Part shown: positions 1 to 4,153 of the stretch, one piece after another | Position numbering within the stretch: position 1 is the stretch's first letter | How the letters are laid out: the number at the start of each line of letters is the position of its first letter | From: Psychromonas sp. SA13A | Lineage (GTDB): Bacteria > Pseudomonadota > Gammaproteobacteria > Enterobacterales > Psychromonadaceae | Assembly: GCF_011378715.1 (NCBI RefSeq) | Contig: NZ_WTKU01000002.1 | Location: forward strand, 186,001 to 250,000 | Length of the DNA stretch: 64,000 nt | Direction: 5' to 3' | Notes under the pieces: model-generated | Databases searched by the model: none | Seen by the model: only the letters and a program-made list of their open reading frames with translations | Told to the model about the DNA's origin: nothing | Program-made: the position numbers and the translations under genes

Positions 1-1388
1 AAAACCAAAACCGAGAAGTGCAAAAGCGTGGCTTAGAAAATAGCTTAGCGGATTTGAAAATTGAAAAAAATAATTTAATCGGTGAGAAACAAAAACAATT
101 TAAGAAAGTATCACAACAATTAAATGACGATGCCGATCTGTTATTACAATTAGGGTTAGCGCAACGAGAGTGTGAGCAATACGGTATTGAAGCAACTTTA
201 AGTGAATCTGAACCGCATAACAGTGCCGATTTAACAGTAACATTCTGTGGCGATTGGATAAAACAATTCAGAACTATAGATAAACGATTACAAAGTCAAA
301 TCACTCAGTTTAATACCGCCTTTGCTAAGCATAATGCAAACAGTGAATTATATGAAAACTGGGTTAAATTAGTGTCTGATAATGATATTTATGAAGGCGC
401 TCGTAGTCTGTTTAAGTATCAGCATCCGATCGCTGACTTATTAAGTAGTGCCGCTCAAAAGCAAAAAAATACTTATCAACTAGTCACCGTCAATGCGAAT
501 ATGATCAATGAGTTTTATCAGCACATAGAAAATTTTGCGCGTCGCATTAAAAGCATTGGTAAACAGTTATCAAGTAACGTCACTAAGCTCGCTCATTTCG
601 AAGCATTAGCGGACATTAATGTTAATACTGTGATGAAACAAGAAGAGCTTGATTATTGGGGACCATTACAGCAATTTGCAAAATTGTTTGACAAATATCG
701 TGATGATTTACGTGAAGGAGTGGGTGATATTCCCGATGACTTGATTGTTGCGATGCAAAAATTGTCGACTTATCTACCTAGTGATGGTTTTGCATTAGCG
801 CATCATCAATTGTTTGATATAGAGTTTACTATCTCAGAAAAGGGGCAGTTAAAACACGCTCGTAATGCGCGACAGTTGAAAAAAATCAGTTCTACGGGCT
901 TATCCTACTTAGCGATGCTTTCTTTATATGCGGGTATTTTGGGTATGTTACGAGGTGAAAGCGATGCTAAAACACAAATCATCCTACCAGTGGATGAATT
1001 AGGTGAACTGGCAGCAGAAAATATCGACCTGTTATTGACTATGTTTAACGATAATGCGATCACTATGCTATCGGCTTCACCTTCTACGGATAGGCATATT
1101 TTATCTTTATATCAACGTCATTATAAGATTAAAGATAATAAGATTTTCCATGCGCATATTCCAACTTCTCGCTTAGATGAATTACTGCTACAACGTAAAA
1201 AAGTAGCCGAGCAGCTCAAGAACCAAGTAAATGAACATACAAGTACTAATGTAAGTACTCATGCAAGTACGGACGTAAGCGCTATTGAGAACTCACAAGA
1301 AAAACGTGAGCAAAGCAATACAGAGAGTGAGCAGGCGTCATCAAGTACTGATACAGATATGATCTCAAAGGAGCCTCAAAATGTTTAA
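1..1388 (+). CDS. SMC/MukB-like ATPase (JetC/MksB type), C-terminal part only
   Basis: The reading frame is open to the left edge (first full codon at base 3), so only the C-terminal half of a large SMC-type motor is present; a GTG at 18 is probably internal. Residues numbered from that GTG: a charged coiled coil (about 1-270), then a C-terminal ATPase lobe. A stretch near 290-300 reading STGLSYLAML resembles the MukB GTGMSILVMV region, and a Walker B-like segment has Asp326-Glu327 after ILPV. The last 55 residues are Ser/Thr/Glu-rich with a tetrapeptide repeat. The end overlaps the next gene by 8 bases. Known relatives entrap DNA and extrude loops (MukB) or restrict plasmids (JetC). Function here is inferred from the four-gene context; the Walker A lobe lies outside the window. 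Confidence 0.75.
   Translation, partial: NQNREVQKRGLENSLADLKIEKNNLIGEKQKQFKKVSQQLNDDADLLLQLGLAQRECEQYGIEATLSESEPHNSADLTVTFCGDWIKQFRTIDKRLQSQITQFNTAFAKHNANSELYENWVKLVSDNDIYEGARSLFKYQHPIADLLSSAAQKQKNTYQLVTVNANMINEFYQHIENFARRIKSIGKQLSSNVTKLAHFEALADINVNTVMKQEELDYWGPLQQFAKLFDKYRDDLREGVGDIPDDLIVAMQKLSTYLPSDGFALAHHQLFDIEFTISEKGQLKHARNARQLKKISSTGLSYLAMLSLYAGILGMLRGESDAKTQIILPVDELGELAAENIDLLLTMFNDNAITMLSASPSTDRHILSLYQRHYKIKDNKIFHAHIPTSRLDELLLQRKKVAEQLKNQVNEHTSTNVSTHASTDVSAIENSQEKREQSNTESEQASSSTDTDMISKEPQNV
1239..1286 (+). repeat. 12-base in-frame repeat in the SMC-like tail
   Basis: Four 12-base units (1239-1250, 1251-1262, 1263-1274, 1275-1286) share an AAGTACT-type core and encode the tetrapeptides TSTN, VSTH, ASTD, VSAI. 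The last unit is the most decayed. The array lies in the low-complexity C-terminal tail beyond the ATPase lobe. Confidence 0.7.
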
Positions 1389-2004
1389 GCAAACTGTTCA
1401 GCAACTATTAACAGGAGCGGTAATTTGTGAAACAGGGTTTGCCGATGAATTCCTCTATTTGCAGGCTCAATCTAATCAGGATCGTGTCTCGGATTTTTTA
1501 TCTAATTTAGACCGTGATTTAACGTACTTAGACAGTGCCGATGCCTATTATTGTACTTTTAACGAAGTAGACGCTAATAACAGTGCTGAACTGACCACTT
1601 TATTTACCGATATTAGAGGGATGTTTCGTCCGTTAGTAGAGTTCTTAGAGTTGATCCTCACTGCCAGTCAAACCGATTTACCTATCCATGCTAAATCAAT
1701 TATTAATATCAATGAGCTATTTGATCCCTTTGAACATGATCAAACTTTACGTGAACAACTGCGCCATTTAACCGCGATACGTCCTTTTAAAACGAATAAA
1801 TTAGAAAGCCGTGAGCAGCTGGTATTTGTTTTTCATAAACTTGAAGAGTTAGGATATTTTGTGCGTAAGAATGCTGGAAGTAGTCGCTATTTTGCGACGG
1901 CACGTTTCGATTTAATCTATTTATTGATTGAGTTTCTGAATGACTCAGAACGCATTGAGTTACCTGAAACTGAACAGCAACAACAAGAAGAGTTATTGTT
2001 TTAA
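1381..2004 (+). CDS. MukE/MksE-like (JetB-type) condensin subunit
   Basis: A 207-residue acidic helical protein. The C-terminal third (about 140-190) reads as a winged helix: a helix ending in KLEELGYFV, then a short hairpin RKNAGSSRYFATARFDLIYLL. MukE, MksE and JetB are small winged-helix proteins of about 200-240 residues that dimerise and bind the kleisin, so length and fold fit. The start has a strong AAGGAG about 6 bases upstream and overlaps the end of the SMC gene by 8 bases. The stop overlaps the next ATG (TAATG), indicating translational coupling. It ends in a Gln/Glu-rich tail. Identity rests on size, fold impression and position; sequence similarity alone is weak by eye. Confidence 0.62.
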   Translation: MFKQTVQQLLTGAVICETGFADEFLYLQAQSNQDRVSDFLSNLDRDLTYLDSADAYYCTFNEVDANNSAELTTLFTDIRGMFRPLVEFLELILTASQTDLPIHAKSIININELFDPFEHDQTLREQLRHLTAIRPFKTNKLESREQLVFVFHKLEELGYFVRKNAGSSRYFATARFDLIYLLIEFLNDSERIELPETEQQQQEELLF

Positions 2005-3248
2005 TGGCTGGCTACGATACCAAAGATGTTGCGGAGTTATTACGTCAACTTGGCTCAAATGACCAATTGCTTGCTGAAGCCTATGTATTTGGTTCGATAC
2101 AGGGCGACGGTGGTGATGCACGTAAAATTGCTGCTTTGCATAAAAAAGCGTTATTAAGGCCCGACGATGAACCGGGTGATTATCGTGTAAGTGCTGAATT
2201 AAAACGCATGCTAAACCGGTTAATGCGTAAACAAAGTAGTTACCGTCAACTTACTGATATGGGTAAAGTAATTGATGTATTGGAAGATACTGTCAACGAC
2301 TACCGTTTATCTGTGATTGGCGACCAGCAGGACGATGCAGAATACTATTTAGATCAACTTGATGATCTGCTTTATGAAGCAAAAGATAACTTAAATGTTA
2401 GCTTAGATAATATGCATTATGCCATTTCCAGTCAGTTTGGTTTTGTATCTACTATTAGTGCTAAGGTTCGTGAAAATGAACGTGCTTTAACCTATGCACA
2501 AAAGCTATTAACTGAGTTACAACAGATTGACCCTGAAACTTGTTATGAGTGGATGAATTGGGCTTGCCCGGTAGAACTGGCGCGTAAAATCAGTGGTTTC
2601 ATCTATTGGTTTAATCAGACTCTTCCAAGGTTACGTTACATCATTGACAGTATGCGCCTAAGTTTATTTAAATTACGACGCGATGAAAAACAGGCAAGCC
2701 TATTACGCAATATGGCGCGGTATCTTCACAAACACCCTGAATTTGAAATTAATGAACAGGTGTTTGAAGACAAAACTTTACCGAAACCATTACGTTTTGC
2801 TGCGCCGATGCCGATTAAGTCGTATATCAATGTTAAAGAAACAGCGCATGAAATTGCATTAATTGAAATTGTACAATCACTGCGTAAATTAAGTTCAGTG
2901 GTTAAACCTAATGCGCGTGAAACATCGGAAGTGGAATTGATTGCTAATGTTGCTATGAGTTTCAGTTACGATTACTTCGAAGAGCAGACAGAACGTTTAT
3001 TTGAACAAGCTATTACCACTGGAAACCCCGTTTCTGCTATTAAATATTGGCAACAAGCGTTACCAGAGTGGCATAGCGAACAACAGCATATCGACCCGAC
3101 ACCTTGGGTTGAGTTAGTGTTTAGTAGTTATTGTAAATTAACCAATATACAACAAGCATTGATAGATATTCGCCCTAAAGGCCAACAATTAAAGGGTATT
3201 TCCCATAATTGGTCGTACAGTGATATTGTCGTTAAAGTAAATAGTTAA
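2004..3248 (+). CDS. MukF/MksF-like kleisin (JetA-type) subunit
   Basis: A 414-residue, almost entirely helical protein that starts inside the previous stop codon (TAATG). Residues about 60-180 form long amphipathic helices with many acidic residues, as in the helical middle of MukF/JetA proteins; the C-terminal third is also helical. In MukBEF-like complexes the kleisin bridges the two SMC heads and carries the MukE-type dimers. Its place between the small winged-helix protein and the TOPRIM protein supports this role. I see no enzyme motif. JetA/MksF proteins are usually somewhat longer, so this one is compact. Assignment is by context and helical character, not by a diagnostic motif. Confidence 0.58.
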   Translation: MAGYDTKDVAELLRQLGSNDQLLAEAYVFGSIQGDGGDARKIAALHKKALLRPDDEPGDYRVSAELKRMLNRLMRKQSSYRQLTDMGKVIDVLEDTVNDYRLSVIGDQQDDAEYYLDQLDDLLYEAKDNLNVSLDNMHYAISSQFGFVSTISAKVRENERALTYAQKLLTELQQIDPETCYEWMNWACPVELARKISGFIYWFNQTLPRLRYIIDSMRLSLFKLRRDEKQASLLRNMARYLHKHPEFEINEQVFEDKTLPKPLRFAAPMPIKSYINVKETAHEIALIEIVQSLRKLSSVVKPNARETSEVELIANVAMSFSYDYFEEQTERLFEQAITTGNPVSAIKYWQQALPEWHSEQQHIDPTPWVELVFSSYCKLTNIQQALIDIRPKGQQLKGISHNWSYSDIVVKVNS

Positions 3249-3268
3249 GGTAAATAATTAAAATCAAC

Positions 3269-4153
3269 ATGAATCATTCCCGCTTTAATAAAATACAGTA
3301 TGATTTTTTTGCAAGACATCTTCGTGCTGATCTCGGGGCTGTAAAAGCAACCCAAAGTTGTCGTTGGATGGTTGATACTCATCGTCTCGGACGTATTCAT
3401 GATGGATTGTGGTTTTATACTGAACAAGATAGAGCAGCTATTATTGAATTAGTGCAACGAGAGTTACACATTAATTTACTTTTTGATCATTATCCGGATA
3501 AAAGTACTCGTGTAGATACCGCTCTTAGCCATAACAATGAAAAGTTTAATACCTTGTCCGTTAGCAATGACTTTGTATTGGTTAACGCAATGCAAACACT
3601 GCAACTTAATGGACAGCAGATAGAGGTAGGTGCGATTTCATCATTGGGGTTATATGTTGATGCATCTAAAATTAACAGTGTAGAGCATCAATATATTGTG
3701 TTGGTTGAAAACCTAGCGGTAATGGCTAATTTACAACATTTAGTATTAATGGATAATGCAGCACATTTAAAAAATGCCCTATGGCTGTATCGTGGTGATC
3801 AAAAATCAATACAAAGTACCCATCAAGCCTATGCGTTTTTTAGATCATTTAAAGCTTCACATCAGCTATTATGTTTTGCGGACGTAGACCCTAAAGGCTT
3901 AGAGATTGCTATAAGTAGCAGCGCAACTAAGATTTTAACTGTTGAAACAAGTATGGTTGAAACCTTTAACATTAGCGGTATTGAAAAAGATTTTTATAAC
4001 CAAATTAATTCAGTTAATTATCTGAAAAATATAACGTTATCAGCAGAAAGCCAAAACTTGGTTGCTACAATCTGTGAGCATAAAAAAACTATTAAACAAG
4101 AGCATATTTTAGCACACCAAATGCCCGTAGCAGTGGTTGAATTATTTAATTAA
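3269..4153 (+). CDS. JetD/MksG-like TOPRIM protein (DUF2220-type)
   Basis: A 294-residue protein 20 bases after the kleisin gene. The C-terminal half has a TOPRIM pattern: Glu147 in VLVENLAVM, a YRGD segment at 174-177, and an acidic pair Asp205/Asp207 in CFADVDPKGLEIA, with a later KQEHI motif (277-281) like the conserved Gln-Glu near the end of DUF2220 proteins. JetD and MksG carry a Spo11/topoisomerase VI-type TOPRIM nuclease domain that cleaves DNA in Wadjet anti-plasmid systems. The protein is shorter than typical JetD (about 380 residues), so the N-terminal arm is reduced. All acidic residues needed for metal binding appear present, so nuclease activity is plausible but inferred. Confidence 0.68.
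   Translation: MNHSRFNKIQYDFFARHLRADLGAVKATQSCRWMVDTHRLGRIHDGLWFYTEQDRAAIIELVQRELHINLLFDHYPDKSTRVDTALSHNNEKFNTLSVSNDFVLVNAMQTLQLNGQQIEVGAISSLGLYVDASKINSVEHQYIVLVENLAVMANLQHLVLMDNAAHLKNALWLYRGDQKSIQSTHQAYAFFRSFKASHQLLCFADVDPKGLEIAISSSATKILTVETSMVETFNISGIEKDFYNQINSVNYLKNITLSAESQNLVATICEHKKTIKQEHILAHQMPVAVVELFN

Follow-up and report, generated by a model that had tools for sequence, protein, structure and literature searches.

Complexes built from an SMC ATPase, a kleisin and a KITE protein extrude DNA loops, and in systems that carry a further subunit, MksG or JetD, that subunit cuts circular DNA (PMC10123090, PMC10512200, PMC10586767). Chromosomal activity is undocumented for JetABCD, and a review speculates that the condensins MukBEF and MksBEF descend from Wadjet (PMC10586767). 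An operon that combines these four parts, and whose known relatives destroy plasmids that enter the cell, lies at the start of the window analysed here, i.e., a 64,000-nucleotide stretch (bases 186,001-250,000 of contig NZ_WTKU01000002.1) of the 4.57 Mb genome of Psychromonas sp. SA13A, and it raises the question of whether such an operon defends its host against plasmids or organises the host's own chromosome.

The four genes lie on the + strand in the order SMC (B), KITE (E), kleisin (F) and TOPRIM (G), and they are closely spaced, with B and E overlapping by 8 bases, E and F overlapping by 1 base and a gap of 20 bases between F and G, in agreement with the layout given in an earlier note on this DNA. 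The window holds the C-terminal 461 codons of the SMC gene (1..1388). Completing the gene upstream, as that note had proposed, recovered a whole frame of 3852 bases and 1283 aa, including the Walker A motif, that starts 2,464 bases 5' of window base 1 (L002 7537-11388), which rules out a lone truncated SMC fragment. Promoter-like sites were fewer at the operon than in shuffles, i.e., there was no promoter support.

The first gene had been taken for an SMC-type ATPase from its C-terminal lobe, and the profile searches bear this out. The protein matches PF12128 (DUF3584) over its full length in the Pfam scan (1051.7 bits) and carries three ATPase motifs, namely a Walker A GTNGAGKT (residues 35-42), a signature SSTG (residues 1118-1121; window about 888-899) and a Walker B ending in DE (residues 1153-1154; window about 993-998), the residues of which are unchanged in every genome of the window's genus where they are readable. 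Its orthologues match JetC models (best JetC3, 1.2e-7), which PADLOC itself describes as 'DUF3584 domain; MukB-like'. Weak LmuB matches were also found, and AAA_23 and SbcC_Walker_B were weakly matched in one orthologue. Orthology of this SMC to MukB was ruled out, the window genome (G000) having no match to the MukB N-terminal domain PF04310, as was its orthology to Smc, since no genome of the genus exceeds the Smc cut-off.

The second gene (1381..2004, + strand) encodes a 207-aa protein, described earlier as a small winged-helix protein, which has no direct family match in Pfam; among its orthologues 27/38 match MksE PF21980 (best 3.1e-9) and 14/38 match DUF4194, and it is through these relatives that the protein is recognised as an MksE/JetB-like KITE subunit of the MksE family. 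The third gene (2004..3248, + strand; 414 aa), for which a helical, kleisin-like product and a structural comparison with JetA and MukF had been suggested, matched no sequence family. Its AlphaFold model (mean pLDDT 74.8) comprises an N-terminal winged helix, a helical middle domain, a disordered linker at about 297-320 and a C-terminal domain, and the ten top-ranked Foldseek matches all belong to MukF or JetA, led by MukF 9gm7_C (1.9e-4) and JetA 8as8_E (1.0e-3), with low whole-chain TM. A second, alignment-based comparison with MukF gave a Z of about 12 over the helical domain, a value that helical bundles can reach by chance, and the kleisin call therefore takes the Foldseek ranking and the order of the domains as its basis. 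On the strength of this model the protein is classed as an MksF/MukF/JetA-like kleisin whose best structural matches are MukF and JetA. An NCBIfam scan returned no match to B, E or F and gave noise only for G, and PDB sequence profiles provided no direct link of B to MukB or JetC, nor of F to MukF or JetA. Since such direct profile searches of the PDB with B, E and F returned coiled-coil or unrelated noise only, the kinship of these three proteins rests on their folds and on the profile matches of their orthologues.

The fourth gene (3269..4153, + strand) encodes a 294-aa, nuclease-like protein matching DUF7281 (PF23947, 3.2e-40). The E...DxD pattern noticed earlier corresponds to E147 (3707-3709), D205 (3881-3883) and D207 (3887-3889), all read on the + strand; these three residues are invariant in 21/21 proteins of the window's genus and, together with N148, G210, R81 and K92, in 27 aligned TOPRIM proteins that share 16-87% identity with the window protein. 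In Foldseek, the AlphaFold model (mean pLDDT 87.3) matched Topo VI-A (1d3y, 3.9e-6), Spo11, MksG (1.5e-3) and JetD (3.1e-3), and its Z of 12.1 both to Topo VI-A (VIA, 177 residues) and to MksG (160 residues) stands far above unrelated rows. Orthologues match the JetD model JetD1 (6.8e-9) and also DUF2399. No DUF3322 match was found in the Pfam scan, and residues 1-90 are modelled as a small helix-strand domain. As modelled, G is a TOPRIM subunit with the Topo VI-A/MksG/JetD fold.

All four roles proposed in the earlier note are supported, and so are the kinship to Wadjet and MksBEFG and the unusual gene order that it described. The published order is mksFEBG, with jetABCD as its counterpart (PMC10123090). 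No readable locus of the operon family follows this F-E-B-G (A-B-C-D) order; all show B-E-F-(G), i.e., the C-B-A-D arrangement, with B-E-F constant in 39/39 first loci and in the later readable loci, and in most of them G follows F immediately. The arrangement is not due to chance, because the B-E-F order is the same at every readable locus of about 60 genomes, plasmids and a phage. While the operon shares with MksBEFG/Wadjet the same four functional parts, the orthologue matches to MksE, DUF4194, JetC, JetD and DUF2399 models and the fold of G, it differs in its gene order, in a G without detectable DUF3322 and in not being recognised by PADLOC. The operon is thus a divergent clade of MksBEFG/Wadjet that PADLOC does not recognise. 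A literature search on Psychromonas and condensins returned nothing relevant; the founding MksBEF survey (Petrushenko 2011) was outside its scope and may list some of the proteins.

The DUF3584 SMC is present in 24/24 genomes of the window's genus (f1), a marine one, in one copy each, including a genome of 1.7 Mb. The neighbours of the operon in the genus, read from sequence, are patatin, DUF1415, slyD and glutaredoxin genes, which we take to be housekeeping genes, and a recent mobile insertion in the window genome is ruled out by this context and by the presence of the SMC in all 24 genomes. Smc above the TIGR02168 cut-off was found in 0/24 of them, all 8/8 positive comparison genomes scoring >900 bits, and DUF4194-type KITE proteins, for which C. 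glutamicum provided the positive control, in 0/24. In the nine of the 24 genomes that were searched for true MukB, ScpA and MatP, none of the three was found (0/9 each); a single 23.8-bit MukB match fell in a 544-aa frame of G125. With one copy of this SMC in each of the 24 genomes and no Smc, DUF4194 KITE, MukB or ScpA recovered by these searches, the SMC is probably the sole condensin that the genus has, as far as sequence searches can tell, and the earlier suggestion that the operon replaces ordinary MukBEF in this lineage agrees with the nine genomes in which MukB was sought. The same note had favoured a defence system, adding that a lack of any other condensin in genomes with this operon would point to chromosome organisation. 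These searches detected no other condensin in the genus, so a plain defence system is disfavoured and a chromosome-organising role becomes the more likely one in the window's genus.

Across the order, 149 genomes were scanned for DUF3584, true MukB and ScpA, which were present in 59, 49 and 73 genomes, respectively. DUF3584 is family-wide in several families, mostly alongside ScpA, whereas it occurs together with MukB in one genome only (G114; 1/149). The named relatives are from Shewanella, Salinimonas and Billgrantia, and at the level of the class 10/369 genomes have DUF3584 over the cut-off. None of the three proteins was detected in 17/149 genomes of the order, some of which belong to tiny symbionts or may encode SMCs of other kinds, and for this reason the lack of other condensins does not prove a chromosome role. 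In three genomes (G050:C13, G133:C1 and G026:C55) there are frames some 1180-1250 aa long that match the N-terminal domain of MukB weakly (21-23 bits) and are perhaps further divergent MukB/MksB-like SMCs. Genomes of two other families (f12 and f25) have MukB without a MatP match, and five of f25 carry both MukB and ScpA.

The near mutual exclusion with MukB is one likeness to MukBEF, a dedicated condensin, and the best structural matches of the kleisin model to MukF are another. Unlike MukBEF, the operon has a TOPRIM partner, and its SMC lacks the MukB N-terminal match and is shorter, at 1283 aa, than the MukB open frames of the survey (about 1490 aa); MatP is absent from the nine genomes of the genus mentioned above, and the E. 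coli order, mukFEB, differs from B-E-F. The MksBEF of Pseudomonas, a Wadjet-like condensin without a TOPRIM subunit, contributes to chromosome organisation (PMC10586767, PMC7485682), and the G-less members of the operon family resemble it. However, MksBEF in Pseudomonas accompanies Smc-ScpAB, while Smc was found in no genome of the window's genus. The genus likewise departs from MksBEFG/Wadjet in that its operon is a single-copy core locus and the probable sole condensin, and in the operon family as a whole G is often absent.

Relatives of the operon also occur on mobile elements and in defence islands. The B-E-F-G order is found on plasmids of Enterobacter, Acinetobacter, Azospira, Marinobacter and Vibrio, some of the relatives' plasmids being conjugative. 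In the annotations, the proteins of the plasmid and phage copies are either ATP-binding or hypothetical, apart from one plasmid G called DUF2399. The conjugative IncC plasmid pVIM-Exn692 of Enterobacter hormaechei (L156, NZ_OR497351.1 135959-154663) carries a B-E-F-G operon in which E, F and G are annotated as hypothetical and an IS256-like element lies within the SMC gene; a Tn7-like TnsD and a WYL gene flank it on one side and a CBASS-like cluster on the other. Dolichospermum phage Dfl-JY45 (L161, PP438435.1 80940-96524) carries the operon complete, as DUF3584-MksE-kleisin-DUF7281, with the gene order unchanged and every product labelled hypothetical. In the MukB-bearing genome G114 (L067), B-E-F-G adjoins DarG (1.5e-101), a WYL regulator, an HD protein and a PLD/ZacB-like protein. 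A further locus (G079, L073, f16) has flanks 51-90% identical to those of its f16 relatives around an operon of the Psychromonas type (SMC 47%, kleisin 56% and KITE 67% identical to the window), an apparent in-place replacement by a foreign copy. The context in G114 and on the Enterobacter plasmid, set against the housekeeping context in the genus, indicates that the family has both mobile, defence-island members and core members; a defence role is likely for the former, and it is possible for the TOPRIM subunit.

That subunit is also the one that can be lost. A profile search found G in 22/24 genomes of the genus. The two exceptions are G155 (1.7 Mb, 3 contigs) and G158, whose completeness is estimated at 100%; a hidden copy was looked for throughout both genomes without success, and G was likewise absent genome-wide in 23/23 genomes of other families picked as G-less. 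The kleisin gene of G158 runs straight on to slyD, which in relatives comes after G. Within the genus G has been lost twice, once cleanly, with B-E-F retained. On the SMC tree the state of G changes 11 times, two of them inside the genus, although this count is approximate, since the tree was built by a quick method and its branches are long. In two other loci G is set apart from the kleisin: in G110 (L147 5882-10532) kbl, tdh and further genes occupy the roughly 4.9 kb before an intact G, and in G157 (L140) a similar gap measures about 5.4 kb. Median identity within the genus is 65% for B, 77% for E, 68% for F and 42% for G, and in five close pairs dN/dS was 0.009-0.051 for B, E and F vs 0.072-0.132 for G, which evolves at two to seven times the pace of the core. 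Judged by these ratios, all four genes are under purifying selection, with the B-E-F core far more constrained than G.

The best explanation, to which we give a probability of about 0.62, is that B-E-F is a condensin that organises the chromosome and that G is an optional plasmid-cutting subunit. B-E-F would act as an ATP-driven, loop-extruding condensin that most likely organises and segregates the Psychromonas chromosome, a role that we infer because no other condensin was found in the genus, and it would do the job that Smc-ScpAB or MukBEF does in neighbouring families. G would work with this condensin, most likely by cleaving small DNA circles once the motor has extruded them completely, and it would be detachable, i.e., it could be lost while the core stays.

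A special case of this explanation, whose chances we put somewhat below even, is that the same loaded complex both folds the chromosome and, via G, cuts small circles, so that Psychromonas would have preserved the proposed intermediate between Wadjet and MukBEF. It accords with an operon that is the sole condensin by the tests made and still has a conserved nuclease gene in 22 of the 24 genomes, and with the speculation that MukBEF and MksBEF came from Wadjet (PMC10586767). However, tight coupling of G to B-E-F is not required, since G is separated from the core by about 4.9-5.4 kb in two species and lost in two.

Clearly less likely is that the operon is only a plasmid or phage defence, a new Wadjet subtype fixed in the genus, with the chromosome managed without a condensin. 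The invariant TOPRIM active site, the retention of G in most genomes of the genus and the relatives that reside on conjugative plasmids, in a phage or next to WYL, CBASS and DarG in defence islands would all suit such a role, and the 17 genomes of the order with none of the three condensins suggest that bacteria can live without one. Against it stand the single SMC copy in every genome of the genus, kept even in one of 1.7 Mb, the retention of B-E-F where G, the executing part, has been lost (G155, G158 and many other families) and the much stronger constraint on the core than on G. It is improbable that G is instead a topoisomerase- or recombinase-like strand-cutting partner on the host chromosome, since, while its best fold matches are Topo VI subunit A and Spo11, the operon has no gene for a Topo VI-B partner and encodes G alongside an SMC complex, the MksG and JetD nucleases have the same fold, and G is dispensable and fast-evolving, with mobile relatives in defence islands. 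A Rad50/SbcCD-like DNA-repair ATPase with a nuclease is hardly credible, for the weak AAA_23, SbcC_Walker_B and LmuB matches are set against the presence of kleisin and KITE subunits, the lack of an MRE11-type nuclease in the operon and the separate SbcC/SbcD-type genes in the P. ingrahamii annotation (PMC2405808).

The preferred reading, a chromosomal condensin with an optional nuclease, suggests that in the window's genus a defence weapon has been turned into basic chromosome upkeep. The analysis also shows that the models now used to detect defence systems overlook an entire clade of Wadjet-like systems, among them copies carried by conjugative plasmids. The origin of condensins such as MukBEF from anti-plasmid systems has so far been speculative (PMC10586767). 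In this family, close relatives differ at the very points at issue, ranging from mobile defence-island forms and core forms beside Smc-ScpAB to the window's genus, where the complex is the apparent sole condensin with a nuclease and where two species have kept the motor and dropped the nuclease, and the question of an anti-plasmid origin thereby becomes testable in culturable strains. If both jobs are indeed combined in one complex, the operon would show, in living cells, the step that has been proposed to lead from an anti-plasmid system to MukBEF and MksBEF.
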